Shown here piece after piece: positions 44,901 through 55,254 of a stretch of DNA of 64,000 bases. Position 1 is the stretch's first letter; each line of letters opens with the position of its first letter. A program made the translations under genes and the position numbers. This DNA comes from Ornithobacterium rhinotracheale DSM 15997 (GTDB lineage: Bacteria; Bacteroidota; Bacteroidia; Flavobacteriales; Weeksellaceae), in contig NC_018016.1 in NCBI RefSeq assembly GCF_000265465.1, forward strand, positions 1,664,001-1,728,000, written 5' to 3'. The notes beneath the pieces were generated by a model, which was not told the origin of the DNA, did not search any database, and saw only the letters and a program-made list of their open reading frames with translations.

Positions 44901-45686
44901 ATGGATTGTAAACTACATATACAAGCAGGCTTTAAAAATGAAAAATCTTACCTAAAAGATGTGTTTTTAACGCGTCCTTTTAGGTTAGTTCCCGTGGGGC
45001 AGCGAAAAAATGACAATAAACTTTATGCCATGATTATGAGCTCTTCGCCAGGAATATTAAGCGGAGACCATTATGACTTAAAGATTGATCTAGACGCCAA
45101 AACCAATTTGCAAATCCAGTCTCAGTCCTATCAAAGATTATTTAACATGGACGGAGAAGCAAGCCAAACGATGCAGGTAGAAGTGGGCGATGAGTCGTTT
45201 TTTTCCTATGTTCCGCATCCTATTGTGCCACACGAAAATTCAACATTTAAAAGCAAAACAAGCGTGAAAATGGGCGAGAAAAGCCGTGTGATTTTAAGCG
45301 AAATCATTACTTGTGGAAGAAAACACCACGGGGAGCTTTTTAAATTCAAGCATTTTCAAAACTTAATGGAAATTAAATACCAAGATCAGCTAGTGCTGAA
45401 GGATAATGTGATTTTAAAACCTCAGCAAATTCCAATCAGTAGCATCGGGATTTTGGAGGAATTTACTCACCAAGGCACGCTAGTATATTACTCAACCGAT
45501 AAAGACGAAAACATTGCTGAATGGGTAGAGAAAATTTATGAAAAGGCAAATGATAATAATTTATTAGAATTTGGAATTTCAGCGATGCAAGAAGGCGGTT
45601 TTGTATTCAGAGCCTTGGGGCAAGGAGGAGAAGCTATGTATAATTTCTTTTTAGAAATACAAGATTTAATCTGGGAAAAAAATTAA
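44901..45686 (+). CDS. ureD: Urease accessory protein UreD
   Basis: 261-aa scaffold that binds apo-urease and, with UreF and UreG, delivers nickel. Family hallmarks: LTRPFRLVPVG (about 23-33), SSPGILSGDHYDLKIDLD (about 49-66), LQIQSQSYQRLFNM and the YVPHPIVPHENSTFKSKT segment (about 104-121). Placement at the end of the accessory set, after ureG, is the common Bacteroidota arrangement. It ends two bases before the nickel permease gene. Confidence 0.92.
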   Translation: MDCKLHIQAGFKNEKSYLKDVFLTRPFRLVPVGQRKNDNKLYAMIMSSSPGILSGDHYDLKIDLDAKTNLQIQSQSYQRLFNMDGEASQTMQVEVGDESFFSYVPHPIVPHENSTFKSKTSVKMGEKSRVILSEIITCGRKHHGELFKFKHFQNLMEIKYQDQLVLKDNVILKPQQIPISSIGILEEFTHQGTLVYYSTDKDENIAEWVEKIYEKANDNNLLEFGISAMQEGGFVFRALGQGGEAMYNFFLEIQDLIWEKN

Positions 45687-45688
45687 TT

Positions 45689-46387
45689 ATGAATACTACT
45701 TTATTGGCATTAGCCATTACATCTATATCAATCAGTTTTGTGCACACCGCCTCGGGTCCAGACCATTATTTGCCATTCATTGTGCTTTCTAAATCTAAAA
45801 GATGGAGCATGTTCAAAACAACATTCATCGTGATTATTTGCGGTTTAGGGCATGTTTTGAGTTCTGTGCTTTTGGGGCTAGTGGGCGTATTTTTAGGTTG
45901 GCAGCTTAACAAGATTTCTTGGTTTCAGGACATAAGAGGAAATGTATCTGGTTGGGCTTTGTTGATTTTTGGAGTAGCCTATCTGGTGTATGCCATAATC
46001 CAAGTGGTGAGAAACAAGCCACACAAGCATTTTGATGTAATGGGAGATGATGTATATGTCTACGAGCACAATCATAGCGAAATTGTGATGCCACAAAATA
46101 GAATTAAAGTTACGCCATTGGTGCTTTTTGCCATTTTTGTCATGGGACCTAGCGAGCCACTTATTCCTTTGTTGTTTTATTCAGGGATAAACCGTTCGGT
46201 TACAGAAATTGTGGTTTTAATCGTGAGTTTCACTACCTGCACTGTGCTCACAATGCTACTTATGGTAATGCTCGGAAGATATGGCTATACACTCATTCAA
46301 TCTCAAAATTTTGAAAAATACATGAATGTAATAAGTGGAGCCGTGGTTACGCTTTGTGGTGTGGGAGTAGTATTCTTTGGTCTATAA
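45689..46387 (+). CDS. UreH/NiCoT-like nickel permease
   Basis: 232-aa inner-membrane protein with six to seven helices. Helix 1-2 carries SISFVHTASGPDHYLPFIVLSKS (about 12-34), an HxxSGPDH motif that corresponds to the metal-binding H-x4-DH of nickel/cobalt permeases. A second conserved element is FVMGPSEPLIPLLFYSG (about 150-166). A His-containing loop (KHFDVMGDDVYVYEHNHSE) faces one side. Directly behind ureD, so nickel supply for urease is the obvious role; cobalt is not excluded. Confidence 0.8.
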   Translation: MNTTLLALAITSISISFVHTASGPDHYLPFIVLSKSKRWSMFKTTFIVIICGLGHVLSSVLLGLVGVFLGWQLNKISWFQDIRGNVSGWALLIFGVAYLVYAIIQVVRNKPHKHFDVMGDDVYVYEHNHSEIVMPQNRIKVTPLVLFAIFVMGPSEPLIPLLFYSGINRSVTEIVVLIVSFTTCTVLTMLLMVMLGRYGYTLIQSQNFEKYMNVISGAVVTLCGVGVVFFGL

Positions 46388-46405
46388 AAAAATAGAATTT
46401 AAAAA

Positions 46406-47308
46406 ATGAATTTATTAAAAAAAGAAGCTCTAGTTACTCAAGTTTTAAAAGGTATAGGGCAAATCATGTTGCAAGAAAATAGCCTCACAGGATTATTATT
46501 CTTGATCGGAATATTTTTAGGAAGTTGGCAAATGGGCGTAGGCGGACTTTTGGCTACCTTGGCAGGAACTTTAGTGGCAAGATTTTTAAAGTACCCTGCC
46601 GAAGAAATCAATCAGGGATTGTATGGGTTCAGTGCCGCATTGGTGGGCGTTGCATTGACTTTTATGTTTCAATCTCAGGTGATTATTTGGGTTTTAGTCG
46701 TTTTGGGAGGAGGCTTGGCTACCGTTGTGCAGCATTTTTTTATAAGAAAAAATATTCCTGTTTTCACACTTCCATTCATCATCATCACATGGTGTATAGT
46801 TTTCTTATTACACAGATTTACAGACATTCCGCCATCAGATGTTTTGTCGGCAGATATTAAAATCGATGATTTAGATGATTTTGCCACATCAATCAATGGA
46901 TTTGGCGAAGTGATTTTTCAAGGAGGTTTTTGGTCTGGCGTTTTATTCTTTGCGGCAGTATTCATTAGCAAGCCAGCCGCAGCATTATATGGCTTATTTG
47001 CCTCATTGCTGGGGGCGGCACTTTCGCACCATTATGGCGAGAGCATGGAGCAAATCCATATGGGATTATTTGGATTCAATGTTGTGCTTTCAGCCATTGT
47101 ATTTGCAGGATTTAAGAAAATAGACGGATTCTGGGTTTTGGTAGCCATTTTATTGACATGGTTTATAGACATAGCCCTAGTCGAGAGCAATGCTCTAGAC
47201 ATTTTTGGAGGCGTGCTCACCTTCCCATTTGTTGCAGGCACATGGATTACATTAATCATTAAAAAATATTTAGATCCAGTTTTATCAAAAATTACATTTG
47301 ATTTCTAA
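46406..47308 (+). CDS. Urea transporter (UT family)
   Basis: 300-aa inner-membrane channel-like urea transporter (PF03253 type) with about ten helices in two inverted halves. Each half has the family pattern: EEINQGLYGFSAALVGVALTF (about 66-86) and EQIHMGLFGFNVVLSAIVFAG (about 213-233), the conserved LxGFNxxL-type pore segments. It brings urea to cytosolic urease. It starts 19 bases after the permease and its stop overlaps upstream-frame candidates of the TonB receptor. Confidence 0.88.
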   Translation: MNLLKKEALVTQVLKGIGQIMLQENSLTGLLFLIGIFLGSWQMGVGGLLATLAGTLVARFLKYPAEEINQGLYGFSAALVGVALTFMFQSQVIIWVLVVLGGGLATVVQHFFIRKNIPVFTLPFIIITWCIVFLLHRFTDIPPSDVLSADIKIDDLDDFATSINGFGEVIFQGGFWSGVLFFAAVFISKPAAALYGLFASLLGAALSHHYGESMEQIHMGLFGFNVVLSAIVFAGFKKIDGFWVLVAILLTWFIDIALVESNALDIFGGVLTFPFVAGTWITLIIKKYLDPVLSKITFDF

Positions 47309-47318
47309 AAACATAAAA

Positions 47319-49403
47319 ATGAACAAAAAAAGAATTTTATTAAGCGTTTTAGGGCTTATTGGGCTAAACTCAGTCATAAAGGCTCAAGAAACCCAAGCTA
47401 AATTTGAAAATGATACCATTCATGATAATAAAATGGTGCATTTGAATGATTTAAAAGTAACAAGTAGTGATTTTATCAAAAACATTACAAAAATAGATTT
47501 AAACAAAGTTCCCGTAAACACAGCACAGGATTTACTTAGAAAAGTGCCAGGTTTATTCATCGCTCAGCATGCTGGCGGGGGGAAGGCAGAACAGCTTTTC
47601 TTGAGAGGTTTTGACTCCGACCACGGGACAGATGTAGCCGTTTATGCAGACGGAATGCCTGTGAACATCGTATCTCATGCTCATGGGCAAGGTTATGCAG
47701 ATTTGCACTTTGTGATTCCAGAAACAATTGATTACATCGATTTCGGCAAAGGAAGTTATTACGTAGACAGAGGAGACTTCAACACCGCAGGATATGTTGA
47801 TTTTAAGACTTTAAACTCAATCGATCAATCCATGGTGAAAGTTGAAGGCGGAAGCTTTAATACCAAAAGACTTTACACTCAATTAAACCTTTTGCACAAT
47901 CATCAAGATAGAAAGTATGCTTATGCCGCAGCGGAATATAATTATACCGATGGGCCTTTTGATGTGAAACAAAACTTTAACCGAGTAAATTTATTCTTGA
48001 AATACAACCAATGGTTTAATAATAAGCAATATGTAAATTTACAATTATCATCATTTAATGCCGATTGGAACGCGTCTGGGCAAATCCCAACACGCGCCGT
48101 GGAGCAGAAAATCATAGGTAGATTCGGCAGTATAGACCCTACCGAGGGAGGGAACACTTCGAGAATCAACGCCTTGCTTCAATACAAAAACATCTTGAGC
48201 GATACCGAGAGATTTGAAAGTAATTTATGGTATAGCAAATACGCCTTTAATCTGTTTTCAAACTTTACATTCTATAAAGAAGACAAAAATAAAGGCGACG
48301 AAATTCAGCAGACAGATGATAGAAATATCTATGGCGGAGAAAGTAAATACATCAAAAATTTAGATTTTGGTAATTCTCACGCAATATGGACATCGGGCGT
48401 AGGCTTTAGATTCGACAATATTGGGAAATTACAACTCAACAGAGTGTTTCAGCGAGATGAATTGCTCGGAAGATTATCAGATGTTAAAGGTACAGAATCT
48501 AATCTGCATGCTTATACAAGCTTTAGATACAAAACAGGAAAATTTACAATCAATCCAATTTTAAGGGTAGATCATTTCATGTTCAATCTTCAAAATTTAT
48601 TGAAAGGAACAAATCCAGAATTAGGAAATTTAGACAAAGAATTGCCTATCGACAAATCAGAAGAAGCTACTCGAGTGAGCCCTAAATTAGACATGTCTTA
48701 TGAGCTAAGCCCAAATGCGTTGTGGTTCTTAAAAACAGGCATGGGATTCCACTCAAACGATGCTAGAGTAGTGATTGCTCAAAATGGTAAAGAAATTTTA
48801 CCATACTCATTGGGGGCAGATTTTGGAGTGAGATTAAGACCATTGCAAAACTTGATCATAACCCCTACTTTGTGGTACACATATTTGCAACAAGAGTTTG
48901 TGTATGTAGGAGACGAGGCAGTGGTAGAGCCATCTGGCAAAACAAGAAGACTGGGAGCAGATTTGAGTGTGAGATATCAACCAACCGAGAATTTATACTT
49001 TAATGCAGATGTGAGCTATGCACACGCTCGCTCTATCGACGATCCTAAGGGCGAAGACTACATTCCGCTAGCACCAATTTGGGTGAGCACTGGAGGAATC
49101 GGTTGGAACTTCCTAAACGGTTTTTCAGCCAATTTACAATACCGCTTTATGGGAGAAAATCCAGCAAATGAAGATAATACAATCAAAACCAAATCTTATT
49201 TTGTAAATGATTTATTGCTAAATTATAACAAAGAAAGATGGGGCGTGAACTTGCAAATTCAAAACTTGTTCAATGTAGAATGGAACGAAGCGCAGTTTGC
49301 CACAGAAACTCAGCTTAGAGGAGAAGCCCAGCCTATCACCGACTTGGCGTATACTCCTGGTACACCATTCTTTATGAAATTAGGAGTTTCATTCAAATTT
49401 TAA
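47319..49403 (+). CDS. TonB-dependent outer-membrane receptor, urease locus
   Basis: About 695-aa outer-membrane active transporter. Signal peptide (MNKKRILLSVLGLIGLNSVIKAQ), plug domain with DLLRKVPGLFIAQHAGGGKAEQLFLRGFD (about 70-98), and a 22-strand-type barrel ending FFMKLGVSFKF. It lacks the SusC regulatory domain. The ATG at 47319 is chosen because it begins a proper signal peptide; the upstream ATG at 47298 overlaps the urea transporter. Co-transcription with nickel permease and urease genes points to nickel-chelate uptake. His/Asp-rich DSDHGTDVAVY and VSHAHGQGYADLHF loops are compatible with metal binding. Confidence 0.85.
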   Translation: MNKKRILLSVLGLIGLNSVIKAQETQAKFENDTIHDNKMVHLNDLKVTSSDFIKNITKIDLNKVPVNTAQDLLRKVPGLFIAQHAGGGKAEQLFLRGFDSDHGTDVAVYADGMPVNIVSHAHGQGYADLHFVIPETIDYIDFGKGSYYVDRGDFNTAGYVDFKTLNSIDQSMVKVEGGSFNTKRLYTQLNLLHNHQDRKYAYAAAEYNYTDGPFDVKQNFNRVNLFLKYNQWFNNKQYVNLQLSSFNADWNASGQIPTRAVEQKIIGRFGSIDPTEGGNTSRINALLQYKNILSDTERFESNLWYSKYAFNLFSNFTFYKEDKNKGDEIQQTDDRNIYGGESKYIKNLDFGNSHAIWTSGVGFRFDNIGKLQLNRVFQRDELLGRLSDVKGTESNLHAYTSFRYKTGKFTINPILRVDHFMFNLQNLLKGTNPELGNLDKELPIDKSEEATRVSPKLDMSYELSPNALWFLKTGMGFHSNDARVVIAQNGKEILPYSLGADFGVRLRPLQNLIITPTLWYTYLQQEFVYVGDEAVVEPSGKTRRLGADLSVRYQPTENLYFNADVSYAHARSIDDPKGEDYIPLAPIWVSTGGIGWNFLNGFSANLQYRFMGENPANEDNTIKTKSYFVNDLLLNYNKERWGVNLQIQNLFNVEWNEAQFATETQLRGEAQPITDLAYTPGTPFFMKLGVSFKF

Positions 49404-49418
49404 TCAAAATTAATTAGA

Positions 49419-49460
49419 ACAAAATACCAAAAGAGCACAATCTTTGGTATTTTGTCTTTT
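49419..49460 (+). terminator. Terminator-like hairpin between TonB receptor and araC-type gene
   Basis: ACAAAATACCAAA (49419-49431) and TTTGGTATTTTGT (49443-49455), a perfect 13-bp stem, then CTTTTT. The next start codon is only ten bases after the stem. Confidence 0.8.
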
Positions 49461-49464
49461 TACT

Positions 49465-50358
49465 ATGAGCGAAGAAAATTCAATCAAAATATTATCCAAC
49501 ACAGAATACAAAAAATCTTTTCTGCCCGATGTATCAGATTTAATTTTAAATAATAAATCATCGATACAACTATATCGGTTAGAATCCTATTTGCGCAATA
49601 TTCTCATTCCCGTAACGCCCTATCGCACCACATTTAACTTTGTATTATTTGTGAAAAAAGGAAGGCTTAAACAATATTTAGACGGCGAGGAATATGTAGT
49701 GAACGAAGGAGAATTTTTGTACATAAAGCAAGGCTCCATCACAGCCACTTTAGAAATCACCAAGGATATAGAGGGGTATTTTTTATTGTTTGAAAACGAA
49801 ATATTTACTTCGCCTCACTTTACGATAAAACACCCCAATTTATTTTTCATTTCCCCTTATTTTAGTTCAGAGAATTTAGGATTCGAAAGTTTTATCAAGG
49901 TTTTAAAACTGATGGAATACGAACTCTTTGTGAATCAATATCAAGACAATGAGATTGTGCTATCTATGCTGAGAGCCGTTTTATTGAAAATGATAGAGCA
50001 GGGAAATCAAAACCCTACCAAAGTGAGCCGATCTCTTGAAATTACATTAAAATTTAGAAACCTCTTGCACGAAAATCATAAGCAAGAAAAAAAAGTGAGT
50101 TTTTATGCAGATCATCTCCATTTAACAGAGAATTATTTAAACAAATGTCTAAAAGAAGTAACGGGAAAAACACCCAAGCAATGGATCAATGAGATAGACA
50201 TAGATTACAGCAAAACACTTCTCCAGACGGGCAAATCAATATCTGAAATTGCCTACGAATTGAATTTTCAAACCCCTTCGCATTTCTCTCAAGTTTTTAA
50301 AAAACTTATAGGCATTTCGCCCACAGATTTTAGATTAAAATTACAGAATAATAAGTAA
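49465..50358 (+). CDS. AraC-family transcriptional regulator
   Basis: About 297-aa regulator starting MSEENSIKILSNTEY. The N-terminal half is a cupin-like sensor (KKGRLKQYLDGEEYVVNEGEFLYIKQG, about 60-87). The C-terminal third is the double helix-turn-helix AraC domain with VSFYADHLHLTENYLNKCLKEVTGKTPKQW (about 205-234) and SISEIAYELNFQTPSHFSQVFKKLIGISPTDFR. It follows the urease locus and probably controls it or the neighbouring heme operon in response to a small ligand, which cannot be identified from the sequence. The upstream in-frame ATG at 49444 lies inside the hairpin and is not preferred. Confidence 0.85.
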   Translation: MSEENSIKILSNTEYKKSFLPDVSDLILNNKSSIQLYRLESYLRNILIPVTPYRTTFNFVLFVKKGRLKQYLDGEEYVVNEGEFLYIKQGSITATLEITKDIEGYFLLFENEIFTSPHFTIKHPNLFFISPYFSSENLGFESFIKVLKLMEYELFVNQYQDNEIVLSMLRAVLLKMIEQGNQNPTKVSRSLEITLKFRNLLHENHKQEKKVSFYADHLHLTENYLNKCLKEVTGKTPKQWINEIDIDYSKTLLQTGKSISEIAYELNFQTPSHFSQVFKKLIGISPTDFRLKLQNNK

Positions 50359-50519: not shown

Positions 50520-50527
50520 TAGATTTG
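50520..50527 (+). promoter_or_regulatory. -7 box (TAGATTTG) of the heme operon
   Basis: TAnnTTTG match 18 bases before the HmuY start at 50546, directly after the palindrome. Confidence 0.6.
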
Positions 50528-50545: not shown

Positions 50546-51166
50546 ATGAAAAAATCAATTTTAGCAATTGCAGGAGCATTGGTAATGTTTTCCTGCAGCA
50601 GTTCAGACGACGACAATGGCAAAAAAGTCGTAGATGGCAATGCAGGTGTTGTAGAAGTGCAAACCAGTGCAAAATCTTATGACAAATGGACATACTATTC
50701 CATCGAGCAAGGAAAGGAAGTAGCCATCGAAAATCCAAAAGAATCCCTAGCTTGGGATATAGCCTTTCACCGTGGAGATGTAAAATTAAATGGGGGAGCA
50801 TCTGGAAAAGGTAAAGGAGAGGCTATTAAGCTAACGACTACGGACTTTGCAACAGTGACAGAGGCACCTGCCGAGGGTTATGTAAAAGATGTTAAGGCAA
50901 ATATTTTATCTTACAACATCAAAACTCACCAAATGACTCCACTGCCAGATGGCTCTAAAAACAATCAACTTGTTTGGCTTAATATAGATACCTCTACTCC
51001 GCCGCCAAAATACACATTGTACAAAAATGTATTTGTGATAAAAACAGCAAACGGAAAATATGCCAAAATCCAATTTTTGAATTATATAGGAGATAATAAA
51101 GAAAAAATTGTGGCTACTTGGAAATACTTTTACCAAGCTAATGGCTCAAGAAAATTAGTGAAATAA
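50546..51166 (+). CDS. hmuY: HmuY-family heme-binding lipoprotein
   Basis: 206-aa surface lipoprotein: MKKSILAIAGALVMFSCSSS with the lipobox Cys at about 17, followed by an acidic Asp linker. The HmuY fold is indicated by VVEVQTSAKSYDKWTYYSIEQGKEV (about 33-57) and SLAWDIAFHRGDVKLNGGASGKGKGEAI (about 66-93), the beta-rich body of this family, and ends with VATWKYFYQANGSRK. HmuY takes heme from host hemoproteins and hands it to the TonB receptor encoded two bases downstream. Start chosen at 50546 so that the signal peptide is complete. Confidence 0.82.
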   Translation: MKKSILAIAGALVMFSCSSSDDDNGKKVVDGNAGVVEVQTSAKSYDKWTYYSIEQGKEVAIENPKESLAWDIAFHRGDVKLNGGASGKGKGEAIKLTTTDFATVTEAPAEGYVKDVKANILSYNIKTHQMTPLPDGSKNNQLVWLNIDTSTPPPKYTLYKNVFVIKTANGKYAKIQFLNYIGDNKEKIVATWKYFYQANGSRKLVK

Positions 51167-51168
51167 AA

Positions 51169-53310
51169 ATGTTTACCAAAAAGTTTCTTCTATTTTTCAT
51201 AGTATTATGCGGGCTAAGCCTAGAGGCACAATGCCCGCATAATTTTATCGTAAAGACAGAGGAGGGCAAAGAGATACATGATTTTTGGGTAACTTATCAA
51301 GGAGAAACCTTTAAATGCTCCCAAGGCGATTCCATTTTTTATCCCGAAAAAGGCACTAAATTAAAATTTAAAAAAGAAGGTTTTTCGGGCAAAACAGTAG
51401 AAGTTTCTGGAGAAAAACAATGGGTGGTATTGCAAGGCAAGGAGCAAGAATATTCACTCAATCCCATGGTGATTACTGGCACTAGAATGCCTAAGCCATT
51501 GAGCAAATCTGCCATCTATACCAGAGTTATAACCTCAAAGCAGATCAATGCGACGGGAAATGTGGATTTGGAAGGAGTGCTCACGCAGGAAATTCCCTAC
51601 ATAAGTTTTACAAATCATGCAGGAGAGCCCAATATAAAGTTTCACGGGCTGGGCGGAAACTCTGTGCTCGTGCTCGTAAACGGAGAGCGACTAGCTGGCG
51701 AAACGAGAAATAATGTGGACTATAACCAAATAAATCTAAACGATATAGATAGAATCGAAGTTTTGCAAGGAGCTTCCTCCACTTTGTATGGTTCTGGAGC
51801 CGTGGGCGGAGTAATAAATATCATTACCAAAAAGCCGTTTAGAGGATTCAATCTAGGTTTGTCGAGTCTTTATAATTCCCAGAAACAGTCTAAAAACAAT
51901 TTGAATCTCTCGTATTCAAACGAAAAATTAAGTACAAAAACAATATTTAATTATGATTTTTGGGCAGAAAAGGAATTTAAAGATTCAGAGCTAGCTTTTA
52001 GAACTTATGAAAATGGCGAAATCGAAAAAGATAAAACGCTCAATACAACATTTGCACCCGAGCAATTCTTCTGGAAAGTGGGGCAAATTGTAGGGTATAA
52101 ATTCAATGAAAATCTAGAGGCGAGTGTAGATGTTTCGCATTTTTTCAAAGATAGAAAAAGCACAGGGGCAGAAAAAAGTATTTTTAAAAATACCTTTAGC
52201 GATAATGCAGGAGTGCTACGAGTAAACTATCGCCGAAATCATTGGGAACATCAGTTTAGTTATAATATAAATACCTACCAGAAAAGGGAAGTTTTTCTAA
52301 AGAAAGATAGCATAAGCGATCATTACAACAGTAGTATCTTCAATGCCAAATACGCCGTGAATTACAAAAAAGACAAAATCGGGGTGCTGAGCGGTGCCGA
52401 GTTTTTCTCCCAAAGGTTGAAAACCTACATGTTTCAAGAAAATGGAACCAAACGAGTGCATTCGTATAGCTTCTTCAGTCAGTTGGATTGGCAACTGGGC
52501 AAAAACGCCTTTTTGCTGGCGGGAGCAAGGCTAGAGTCTCACCAATTTTACGGAACGGCATTTACGCCCAAAATTGCCTTTAAACATAATATTTATAGAA
52601 ACATAAGTGCACGCTGGAACTTTTCCACAGGATTTCGTTCGCCGAGTCTCAAGGAGCTTTACACCGATTGGGATCATTTAGGCATGTTTAGAATCATAGG
52701 CTCTACGGATTTAAAGCCAGAGCACAGCAAGCACTATATGCTCACAATTGAGCAGAATGGCAAAAAGTTTTACAACGCCATCAATTTCTTTAAAACAGAT
52801 ATTAAAGACAAATTAGGCTTAAGGTATAAAAATGCGCACCAAGATACGCTGCAATATCAAAACTTTGAAAAGCAAAATGTTTGGGGAATAGATTTTATGT
52901 CTAAAATTTCTGTGCTTAAAAATGTAAACATCAATCTAGGCTACGGATACACCAAAGATGAAATGAAAATAAACGGCAAAAACGCCTCAGACACGCGCCC
53001 GCATGCATTCAATTACAGCGTGGAGTATCAGACCAAACTTAGTCCAAGTCTAGCCACATCAGTTTCGTGCAATGGAAATTATTACAGCGGAATCAAGTTT
53101 TGGGTAAAGGATAATTACAATAAATTCTTTTATCAAGATTATCCCGCCTACTATGTTATGGGGCTTAATGCGACATTAAAATATAAAAAATATGCCCGCT
53201 TAAACTTAGGCGTGCGAAATATGCTCAATTATAAACCTAAAAATTACAATTTCTACAATCCCATGATCGATGGGGCATTGTACTATATAAGTATAAACTT
53301 AAACAACTAA
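51169..53310 (+). CDS. HmuR-like TonB-dependent heme receptor
   Basis: 713-aa outer-membrane receptor. Signal peptide (1-20), a short beta domain (about 25-90), a TonB box/plug start at MVITGTRMPKPLSKSA and plug motifs VLVLVNGERLAGE and RIEVLQGASSTLYGSGAVGGVINIITK. The barrel contains FRSPSLKELY followed by STDLKPEHSK, a degenerate form of the FRAP and NPDL boxes of heme receptors. Directly behind HmuY, matching the hmuYR pair of Porphyromonas. Energy comes from TonB-ExbBD encoded elsewhere. Confidence 0.87.
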   Translation: MFTKKFLLFFIVLCGLSLEAQCPHNFIVKTEEGKEIHDFWVTYQGETFKCSQGDSIFYPEKGTKLKFKKEGFSGKTVEVSGEKQWVVLQGKEQEYSLNPMVITGTRMPKPLSKSAIYTRVITSKQINATGNVDLEGVLTQEIPYISFTNHAGEPNIKFHGLGGNSVLVLVNGERLAGETRNNVDYNQINLNDIDRIEVLQGASSTLYGSGAVGGVINIITKKPFRGFNLGLSSLYNSQKQSKNNLNLSYSNEKLSTKTIFNYDFWAEKEFKDSELAFRTYENGEIEKDKTLNTTFAPEQFFWKVGQIVGYKFNENLEASVDVSHFFKDRKSTGAEKSIFKNTFSDNAGVLRVNYRRNHWEHQFSYNINTYQKREVFLKKDSISDHYNSSIFNAKYAVNYKKDKIGVLSGAEFFSQRLKTYMFQENGTKRVHSYSFFSQLDWQLGKNAFLLAGARLESHQFYGTAFTPKIAFKHNIYRNISARWNFSTGFRSPSLKELYTDWDHLGMFRIIGSTDLKPEHSKHYMLTIEQNGKKFYNAINFFKTDIKDKLGLRYKNAHQDTLQYQNFEKQNVWGIDFMSKISVLKNVNINLGYGYTKDEMKINGKNASDTRPHAFNYSVEYQTKLSPSLATSVSCNGNYYSGIKFWVKDNYNKFFYQDYPAYYVMGLNATLKYKKYARLNLGVRNMLNYKPKNYNFYNPMIDGALYYISINLNN

Positions 53311-53318
53311 TTATAATC

Positions 53319-54254
53319 ATGAAAAGAATTAAAAATTACATTTTATTATGCAGCACATTGCTACTCACACTGGCTTGTAGCAAGAAGCAAGAAAATGCCA
53401 CAACATCTGAGAATGATGGGCAAAAAAAGATTGCCGTTCTACTAGTGAGCCATGGTTCGCACTCAGAAACTTGGCGAAATGCACTACTACATTTAGAAAA
53501 AAACACCAAACAAGAAATACTGAAAGACACGCCAGCCCAAGCCGTAGAAACCGCCTTTATGGAATATAACGAGCCCTCAATCGCTACACGCTTGAAGGAA
53601 TTTGACAAAGAAGGCTATACCGATGTGTTGATTGTGCCCGTGTTCTTAACCGTGAGTCCGCACTCGTTTGAGGATATTCCTACCATCGTGGGGCTTAAAG
53701 AAAGTCCTTCGTCTATGGAAACTCTAAAAATTGAAAATATAGAAAGATATCCAGCCAAGGCAAAAGTGCATATAGCTCCGCTTTTAGACTTTAGCAATAT
53801 TCTTGAGAAAAATGTACTGAGAAGAGTAAAAGCACTCTCTACTCAGCCTGCAGAAGAAGGCGTTACGCTTGTGGGCTATGGCGACAAGGATTATGAGGCA
53901 GAATGGAGCAACTTGTTTAAAAAAATAGGAGAAAGCATTAAAGATAGTTTAGGAATTACAGATTTAAACTATGCATGGTGCGGGCACATTGCAGGATATA
54001 GCTCAGAGCCTACACAAAGGGCAATAGAAGAGATTTTAAAACAAAAAAAGAGAGATATTGTAATTCCTGTTTTGGTGGCTCACGATGAAAACTTTCAAGT
54101 GAAAATCATAGGAGGTGCAATAGACAAAGTGGCAGATAATAAAGAGAAAGTAGGGTATAAACCAGACGCTATTTTGCCAGATAAAAATGTAGAAAATTGG
54201 ATAGTAGACATCACTAAACAATATGTAGATAAAATCAATAAAGGTGAAAACTAA
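53319..54254 (+). CDS. CbiK-like chelatase lipoprotein
   Basis: 311-aa protein of the sirohydrochlorin cobaltochelatase (CbiK/CbiX) fold carrying a lipobox (LLTLACSKK, Cys at about 20), so it is anchored on the periplasmic side of a membrane instead of being cytosolic. Chelatase residues: LLVSHGSHSETWRNAL (His, about 42-57), VPVFLTVSPHSFEDIP (about 105-120) and LNYAWCGHIAGYSSEP (about 227-242). In a heme-uptake operon it could remove iron from heme or insert metal into a tetrapyrrole; the direction is not readable. Periplasmic CbiK relatives are known in Desulfovibrio. Confidence 0.75.
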   Translation: MKRIKNYILLCSTLLLTLACSKKQENATTSENDGQKKIAVLLVSHGSHSETWRNALLHLEKNTKQEILKDTPAQAVETAFMEYNEPSIATRLKEFDKEGYTDVLIVPVFLTVSPHSFEDIPTIVGLKESPSSMETLKIENIERYPAKAKVHIAPLLDFSNILEKNVLRRVKALSTQPAEEGVTLVGYGDKDYEAEWSNLFKKIGESIKDSLGITDLNYAWCGHIAGYSSEPTQRAIEEILKQKKRDIVIPVLVAHDENFQVKIIGGAIDKVADNKEKVGYKPDAILPDKNVENWIVDITKQYVDKINKGEN

Positions 54255-54822
54255 AAGCCGTAGATACAAAAAGTTTATAAAACTAAATCGAGATTATCAT
54301 CGCGACTTGGGATACTTTTTTTCGGGCTTAGTCATTATTTATTGTCTATCGGGCATTGCCTTTAATCATATAGATGATTGGAACCCTGATTTTATTTTAA
54401 ACAAAAAAGAAATTCAGATAAAACAGGAATTAGACAAGGCACATTTTTCAGACAAGACAGCTCACGAGCTGAGCCAGCTTTGTGGCGAGAAGGAATACAA
54501 ACTTTATGATTTTCCCACGCCCTATCAAGTGAAAATCTATTATAAAGATGCAAGCTTTCATGTAGATTTTAATAAAAAAATGGGCGTTTATGAGCAGATT
54601 ACCCGTCGTCCAGTCTTTTATGAAGCCAATGTTTTGCACAGAAACAATGTCAAAGCTTGGCGGTGGTTTGCCGATATATTTTCGGTGGCACTTATCATAA
54701 TTGTGGTAACGGGCTTGTTCATAGCTTCGGGCAAAAATAGTTTTAAGAAAAGAGGATTCATCTTCTTTGCATTAGGATTCATACCTCCCATTGTGGCGAT
54801 AATCATTCATTATTTAAATTGA
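54244..54822 (+). CDS. PepSY-associated membrane protein
   Basis: 192-aa inner-membrane protein of the PepSY-TM type. First helix YHRDLGYFFSGLVIIYCLSGIAFN (about 18-41) with the family histidine, a periplasmic PepSY-like beta domain (about 50-125), and two C-terminal helices (about 140-160 and 170-190). A conserved LHRNNVKAWRWFADIFSVALI segment fits the family. Such proteins are associated with ferric or heme reductase activity. It starts at a GTG inside the last 11 bases of the chelatase gene, so the two are translationally coupled. Confidence 0.78.
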   Translation: MKTKSRRYKKFIKLNRDYHRDLGYFFSGLVIIYCLSGIAFNHIDDWNPDFILNKKEIQIKQELDKAHFSDKTAHELSQLCGEKEYKLYDFPTPYQVKIYYKDASFHVDFNKKMGVYEQITRRPVFYEANVLHRNNVKAWRWFADIFSVALIIIVVTGLFIASGKNSFKKRGFIFFALGFIPPIVAIIIHYLN

Positions 54823-54828
54823 AAAAAA

Positions 54829-55254
54829 ATGAAAAAATTAATATTTTTAAGTCTCTGTTTGGGATTTATCGTAGCATGTTCTCCTAAAGGAAATCAATTA
54901 TTTAAAGGAGACTCTGTGTGGCAGCGGGATTTCTACCCCATGCCAGGGCTAAAGCACCATGTCGAGTATCAATTAGGCAACGATAGCATAAGCTATGCAA
55001 TAAACGGTAGTGCTGTAAACACGGCATATACAATGCGGGTGGATACCGTGGTGCCAGAGGAAAATAGAATTGTAGCATTTGACAAAGATGGCGTTTGCTA
55101 TGTGTTGTTTGTTAAAGAATTAGGCGGAGATTCCATCAAAATTTTTAAAGAGCAACGAAATGATAGGGCAGATGCACTTAATTTTCCCGTTCCAGCACTT
55201 GATTACAAAGCCAATCACAACCAAGGCTGGAATACCTATTATAAGAAATCTTGA
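54829..55254 (+). CDS. Small lipoprotein at end of heme operon
   Basis: 141-aa lipoprotein with lipobox FIVACSPK (Cys at about 17). The mature part is a small beta domain (KHHVEYQLGNDSISYAINGS, RIVAFDKDGVCYVLFVKELGG), with a short HH pair near the start. No family recognised. It follows the PepSY gene by six bases and is last before a 40-bp perfect palindromic terminator, so it belongs to the heme operon; its function is unknown. Confidence 0.65.
   Translation: MKKLIFLSLCLGFIVACSPKGNQLFKGDSVWQRDFYPMPGLKHHVEYQLGNDSISYAINGSAVNTAYTMRVDTVVPEENRIVAFDKDGVCYVLFVKELGGDSIKIFKEQRNDRADALNFPVPALDYKANHNQGWNTYYKKS

Follow-up and report, generated by a model that had tools for sequence, protein, structure and literature searches.

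Chelatases that act on heme outside the bacterial cytosol have already been shown (HmuS) or proposed (IhtB) in the accessible text of the papers cited here. HmuS of Bacteroides thetaiotaomicron, a membrane-anchored protein encoded in hmuYRSTUV by the third gene, after hmuY and hmuR, removes heme iron only if NADH is supplied and needs reduced heme, and its authors state that how the heme becomes reduced is not yet known (PMC12583661). The HmuS homologues of B. fragilis are predicted to lie on the periplasmic side, and in that organism heme iron is reported to be removed in the periplasm and to enter through FeoAB (PMC6460266). In Porphyromonas gingivalis, the CbiK-related lipoprotein IhtB has been proposed to free heme of its iron, either extracellularly or at the outer membrane (PMC10913741, PMC6460266). 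CbiK of Desulfovibrio vulgaris is a class II chelatase that is exported to the periplasm. It is not known to have a PepSY or HmuY partner. The related chelatases CfbA, SirB and CbiX function in cofactor synthesis with sirohydrochlorin.

In the work reported here, we analysed a stretch of 64,000 nucleotides (the window) from a host genome that is a single contig of 2,399,175 bases. As in the hmuYRSTUV operon, a chelatase-type gene stands third, after hmuY and a receptor gene, and its product is anchored in a membrane and, like the B. fragilis HmuS homologues, predicted to face the periplasm; however, HmuS belongs to class I, is CobN-like and has about 1,450 residues (PMC13227078), whereas the protein found here has 311 residues and a class II fold and is encoded next to a PepSY protein. 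As with IhtB, a chelatase-like lipoprotein is encoded at a locus for heme or iron, although IhtB is CbiK-related and is set with receptor and ABC-transporter genes, no PepSY gene being named in the text available. Like D. vulgaris CbiK, the lipoprotein is an exported class II chelatase, but not of the CbiK type, and it shares the N-terminal domain and a His pair with CfbA, SirB and CbiX but is exported and encoded in a HmuY operon. The PepSY protein shares the PepSY unit, membrane helices and conserved His residues with FoxB and other PepSY_TM reductases, which reduce iron outside the cytosol (PMC13038864, PMC8238504), but it has one PepSY unit, three helices and three invariant His, and its partner is a chelatase instead of a ferrisiderophore pathway.

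We propose from the sequence that cbiX and pepSY would form an extracytosolic module for the reductive de-metallation of heme, or of a metal tetrapyrrole closely related to it, a reading to which we assign a probability of about 55%. What appears to be new is a different class of chelatase in the position of HmuS together with a candidate electron donor; targeted searches of openly licensed literature turned up no description of this combination in the passages that they covered. The initial annotation had spoken of a function with few described examples, which is fair, although HmuS (PMC12583661) and the IhtB hypothesis (PMC10913741, PMC6460266) come close. The extraction of heme iron outside the cytosol in bacteria that lack HmuS is largely an open question, and a two-gene module with a small and soluble chelatase side makes it testable with two purified proteins. 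If the proposal is correct, heme de-metallation would have a dedicated electron source, two classes of chelatase would have been recruited to the same step, and there would be an answer, for these lineages, to how heme iron gets reduced, the step left open for HmuS.

Layout of the operon

An AraC-family regulator gene (49444..50358; Pfam HTH_18, 5.8e-22) is the upstream neighbour of the operon, in which genes for a HmuY hemophore-like lipoprotein (50546..51166; Pfam HmuY, 1.1e-39), a TonB-dependent receptor (51169..53310; Plug 2.9e-22, barrel 3.6e-31), a CbiX-type class II chelatase lipoprotein (53319..54254; Pfam CbiX, 1.4e-14), a PepSY_TM_like_2 protein of 192 residues with a GTG start (54244..54822; Pfam, 3.9e-14) and a small lipoprotein (54829..55254; no Pfam family above the cut-off) follow one another with tight spacing, all six on the + strand. 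The two central reading frames and their 11-bp overlap bear out the initial annotation, which had described a chelatase-fold lipoprotein gene that overlaps a PepSY gene, and the heme operon context that it had claimed is supported by HmuY and the TonB-dependent receptor upstream. We call the receptor HmuR-like from its place beside hmuY, and heme as its substrate is putative.

The pairing of HmuY with an adjacent TonB-dependent receptor is a trait of the Hmu operon, but neither Pfam searches nor the open reading frames of the window revealed hmuS, hmuT, hmuU or hmuV after cbiX and pepSY. In the accessible text on Flavobacterium psychrophilum, only the receptor and a HmuY-like protein are reported of the Hmu set (PMC9331221). 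A HmuS encoded elsewhere was considered and set aside: the CobN/HmuS family (PF02514) gave no match in the host genome, whereas 7 of 13 searched genomes have one.

The sequence TAGATTTG (50520..50527, + strand) lies 18 bp 5′ of the hmuY ATG and fits TAnnTTTG, which we take to be the Bacteroidota -7 box. Because this pattern is no commoner in the window (86 occurrences) than in shuffled sequence (mean 91.75), position is the sole argument for TAGATTTG, and its identification as the -7 box of a hmuY promoter is suggestive only.

The small lipoprotein whose gene closes the operon has relatives in 3 of 21 searched neighbourhoods (L033, L035 and L036), all from the same genus, and is followed by yidD and lgt, which were identified by eye. 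Farther upstream (44901-49403), Pfam (UT) identifies a urea transporter gene, which is directly followed by a second TonB-dependent receptor gene, and genes read by eye as urease accessory genes adjoin them; this second receptor might import a nickel complex. A small DUF6686 protein is encoded one or two genes from CbiX in different organisms (L001:9461-9784 and L143:7566-7886).

The chelatase lipoprotein and its PepSY neighbour

The Pfam CbiX model (PF01903) matched residues 45-159 of the lipoprotein with 54.7 bits against a cut-off of 22, whereas CbiK (PF06180; 3e-4) reached 20.6 bits, under its cut-off of 26.2, and a ferrochelatase match was weak and also below the cut-off. CbiK membership is therefore rejected, and we use the label CbiX-type in place of CbiK-like: the exported lipoprotein and the chelatase fold first proposed for this gene stand, but the CbiK label does not. 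The nearest NCBIfam model was the CfbA nickelochelatase, which matched at 3.2e-19 but with 69.1 bits stayed short of its cut-off of 120. When solved structures were searched by sequence and by profile, CfbA, SirB and short CbiX proteins were found, all on the N-terminal half, and a profile of the CbiX family aligned to the ferrochelatase of the host genome over 35 columns only.

The CfbA/SirB-type pair of metal-binding His residues sits in the N-terminal domain, where H45 (in the motif VSHGS) and H115 (in PHSFEDIP) align with the two metal-binding His of CfbA. Among the 19 of 23 copies that were aligned (the broken copy of genome G050, the remnant of G065 and two copies of G559 were left out), H45, E82, H115, Y187, W220-C221-G222-H223 and E257 are invariant, whereas H255 varies. 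Loss of the chelatase His residues, which had been named as evidence that would refute the initial proposal, was thus seen in none of the 19 copies. The WCGH motif of the C-terminal domain is a mark of this CbiX group as sampled.

The signal peptide ends in TLLLTLA and is followed by CSKKQ, and a Cys preceded by A, G, S, T or V lies 20-32 residues ahead of H45 in all 19 aligned copies. Some Bacteroidota lipoproteins carry a surface-export signal of the SDDDD type (PMC5080379, accessible text). After the lipobox, HmuY reads CSSSDDDN, which resembles this signal and suggests surface exposure, whereas the CbiX-type protein reads CSKKQENA, and because this stretch has no paired acidic residues the predicted location of the protein is the periplasm.

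Structure models were built from the window and L001 sequences only, without those from the whole-genome searches, and both are therefore of low confidence. The weak model of the CbiX-type protein (pLDDT 57.5, pTM 0.51) has a topology of two alpha/beta domains. In Foldseek, this low-confidence model matched SirB best (3.1e-7), followed by ferrochelatase (3.2e-6), and a second structure comparison, made with the same low-confidence model, gave CpfC (Z 12.3; rmsd 5.0 over 221), SirB (Z 10.9), D. vulgaris CbiK (2xvz; Z 10.0) and P. gingivalis FetB (9b86; Z 9.9, rmsd 5.1 over 199 residues). We take FetB and IhtB to be the same protein. At the sequence level, FetB was absent from a single-sequence search of solved structures up to E 1 and reached only E 0.24 against the CbiX family profile, our N-terminal region pairing with its C-terminal half.

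The PepSY protein exceeded the cut-off of PF16357 (PepSY_TM_like_2; 53.6 bits against 27) and fell below that of PF03929 (25.6 against 28.8). PepSY-like proteins of these two families are described as having three helices and have been connected with the transfer of electrons and the reduction of iron (PMC8238504, accessible text). Three membrane helices (22-40, 142-160 and 173-191) were predicted here, with H19 and H42 flanking the first and H132 preceding the second, and these three His are invariant in all 14 aligned copies, the broken one of G050 having been left out of 15. Under the positive-inside rule, the periplasmic face would be the site of H42 and H132, which could bind one heme there, and H19 would presumably require a partner, for example in a dimer. 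FoxB has two His per heme and two hemes (PMC13038864, accessible text); three invariant His in 14 copies do not make two such pairs, but a dimer could bring further His. The low-confidence PepSY model (pLDDT 60.3) gave no usable match in the fold comparison, and sequence searches of solved structures returned nothing meaningful; the absence of FoxB there is not counter-evidence.

Conservation, substitution and decay of the gene pair

At E ≤ 0.001, the CbiX-type lipoprotein was found in 5 of 296 genomes of the family, whereas HmuY was found in 216 of the same 296; therefore, most HmuY systems do without the module. In the phylum, 18 of 395 genomes had a match, 10 of them close (E below 1e-100) and eight weak. 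By order, 8 of 98 genomes matched in that of G300 and G466 and 1 of 4 in that of G306, and further matches came from one metagenome-assembled contig and two Persicobacter plasmids. The close matches are spread over four families (f1, f13, f16 and f18), L001 and Persicobacter, and because the module is rare and patchy, its distribution suggests horizontal transfer between lineages.

The eight weak matches, with E values from 1e-9 to 5e-4, were kept apart from this family. Seven of them (L045-L051) form a more distant CbiX-like group with hydrophobic N-termini, in which the HG motif is kept but the alignment shows a His at the H115 position in none. The eighth (L052) keeps a SHAKNDIP motif, its N-terminal part is absent in the frame read, and its surroundings look by eye like a B12 cluster. 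Only L051 among the eight has both receptor and HmuY matches nearby; it adjoins a TonB receptor, HmuY and DUF4198, and a PepSY_TM protein is encoded a few genes away.

It was found that a PepSY gene is adjacent to a close CbiX gene in 15 of 17 records, a count that includes one record in which both genes are broken and another that retains no more than a remnant of CbiX. Because the adjacent pair recurs in this way, chance is a poor explanation for it, and the conserved pairing is probably of functional significance. Divergence of CbiX and PepSY was correlated across 12 loci (r 0.81, reached by none of 5000 permutations), which shows joint inheritance, not joint function. A TonB receptor resembling that of the window is nearby in 14 of the 17 records. 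HmuY, whose neighbourhood frequency the initial annotation had offered as a check, is present in 9 of the 17 records (8 by phmmer and one more by Pfam) and was undetected in 8, the neighbourhoods of green-sulfur type having been searched for it by phmmer, without the Pfam model. Neither HmuY nor a receptor was found near the pair in G031, a genome that is 56% complete.

No PepSY match was found in the two Persicobacter records (L143 and L144). There, the open reading frame after CbiX encodes 1223 (L143) or 1211 (L144) residues with FMN_bind, Fer4_5 and TonB receptor matches (Pfam), and HmuY follows. These joined frames lie at L143:8881-12552 and L144:8935-12570, and a stretch resembling a signal peptide was noticed by eye in mid-frame. 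The FMN_bind/Fer4_5 half would be an inner-membrane-type FMN/Fe-S electron-transfer module in the place of PepSY. The best indirect evidence that the job of the partner is to supply electrons is therefore this second, unrelated type of electron-transfer protein in the same position, and the conserved pairing likewise makes an electron-supply role plausible for PepSY.

Two CbiX copies flank one PepSY gene in six genomes (G422, G442, G466, G559, G588 and G603), which are probably green sulfur bacteria. The two-CbiX loci are L039, L040, L041, L043, L044 and L014, the last at a contig end. In the five second copies that were aligned, H255 and D256 are lost and H45, H115 and WCGH are kept. Genes near L039 encode a flavodoxin, TonB, ExbB and ExbD, those near L042 a flavodoxin and a DtxR-FeoA iron-dependent repressor, and those near L043 the same type of repressor, a set of neighbours that suggests a setting of iron starvation. 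Five of the six two-copy genomes (all but G559) were searched for CobN-type proteins and have 3 to 6 matches each, and such proteins are likewise encoded by all seven of the f16 and f18 relatives that were searched; therefore, the module does not simply replace HmuS there.

Two close relatives show a damaged operon. In G050 (L035), an insertion that contains two transposase open reading frames disrupts cbiX, and each of hmuY, hmuR and pepSY is split, whereas six flanking genes matched to the window (for a urea transporter, a TonB receptor and a regulator upstream, and for a lipoprotein and YidD and Lgt homologues downstream) are full length. The heme operon thus appears to have decayed as a unit, although the breaks may instead come from assembly error. 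In G065 (L036), pepSY is intact, but hmuY, hmuR and the greater part of cbiX have been lost next to a transposase gene.

Heme as substrate and the alternatives

Three points favour heme as the probable substrate: HmuY is matched strongly, the fold is that of a chelatase, and other tetrapyrroles are excluded. In a phmmer search of solved chains, HmuY matched 8b6a (6.4e-28) and the P. gingivalis-type HmuY 3h8t (1.3e-23). Aligned to 3h8t, it retains one (GHQM) of two His residues that we take to be heme ligands, and the second (FSHG) is Thr. HmuY ligands have been given as His134 and His166 (PMC9331221, accessible text), which may correspond to these two residues. The receptor matched the TonB-hemin model TIGR01785 (3.7e-32) with 111.6 bits against a cut-off of 316.85, behind two general receptor models, and the heme receptor PhuR was only a distant solved relative (3.9e-9). 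Because the receptor is nearer to siderophore/colicin and B12 receptors and TonB-hemin is below its cut-off, the word heme rests mainly on HmuY.

The genes, their families, the exported lipoprotein, the conserved His and the pairing are observed, and from them we infer a substrate, a direction of reaction, an electron transfer and an order of steps. HmuY would capture heme at the cell surface and the TonB receptor would import it. The periplasm-facing CbiX-type lipoprotein would then hold the heme between its two domains, and PepSY, with a heme b between its His residues, would relay electrons from the inner membrane that convert the iron to Fe(II). The Fe(II) would leave by way of the N-terminal His pair and enter the cell through FeoB, and protoporphyrin IX would remain; the host genome carries feoB, hemC and hemH. 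A wider claim, which we hold tentatively and at somewhat less than even odds, is that this is a new kind of reductive heme de-chelatase in which a class II chelatase running in reverse is combined with an interchangeable transmembrane electron donor, mostly a PepSY cytochrome and in Persicobacter an FMN/Fe-S module joined to a TonB receptor.

The alternative that survives best, although we consider it unlikely, is that the CbiX-type lipoprotein is a periplasmic carrier of heme or porphyrin that removes no metal, with PepSY either holding the heme in its reduced state or acting at a later stage. The fold list of the CbiX model also contains the periplasmic binding proteins LsrB and xylose-binding protein, a likeness between chelatase and binding-protein folds is noted in the accessible text of PMC12583661, and the solved class II relative FetB of P. 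gingivalis is named a heme-binding protein. However, a carrier would have no obvious need of the two metal-binding His and E82, which are invariant in all 19 aligned copies, and in each of the 17 records a possible redox partner adjoins the chelatase gene, PepSY in 15 of them and FMN/Fe-S in the other 2.

Less probable still is a function that involves no tetrapyrrole, with PepSY as a reductase of ferric iron or ferrisiderophores and the CbiX-type protein as an Fe(II) chaperone. Characterised PepSY proteins reduce ferrisiderophores (PMC13038864), and PepSY genes beside TonB receptor genes also occur in a B. thetaiotaomicron locus that serves xenosiderophores (PMC10434189). A pepSY gene is marked in a figure legend on heme-uptake regions of Porphyromonas (PMC12106395), in passages that do not describe the pair found here. 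The best solved relatives of the receptor in the window are of the siderophore/colicin type, headed by the colicin I receptor (4.4e-31), and CfbA entries 6m28 and 6m27 hold bare Co or Ni ions, according to their titles. Against this, HmuY is encoded in the operon itself and in 9 of 17 records, and the two-domain architecture of a chelatase has been retained.

The weakest alternative is that another metal (cobalt, nickel or zinc) or another tetrapyrrole (sirohydrochlorin or an imported corrinoid precursor) is handled, by insertion or removal, and we think it improbable in the host genome even though the nearest named models are a sirohydrochlorin nickelochelatase and a cobaltochelatase and BtuB is among the relatives of the receptor, since HmuY is encoded in the same operon and a family search found no uroporphyrinogen-III methyltransferase in that genome. 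Sirohydrochlorin is therefore not an expected substrate there, and cytosolic synthesis of B12 or siroheme was rejected as unlikely on the same ground; both TP_methylase matches of the genome are nearest to the 16S rRNA methyltransferase model TIGR00096, whose cut-off one of them exceeds and the other does not reach. Genomes G300 and G381 have a separate CbiX match among TP_methylase genes, so the lipoprotein is additional there, which speaks against this alternative. In G422, G442, G466 and G603, however, the lipoproteins are the only CbiX matches, and they may therefore have a B12 role there; three of these four genomes have several TP_methylases.
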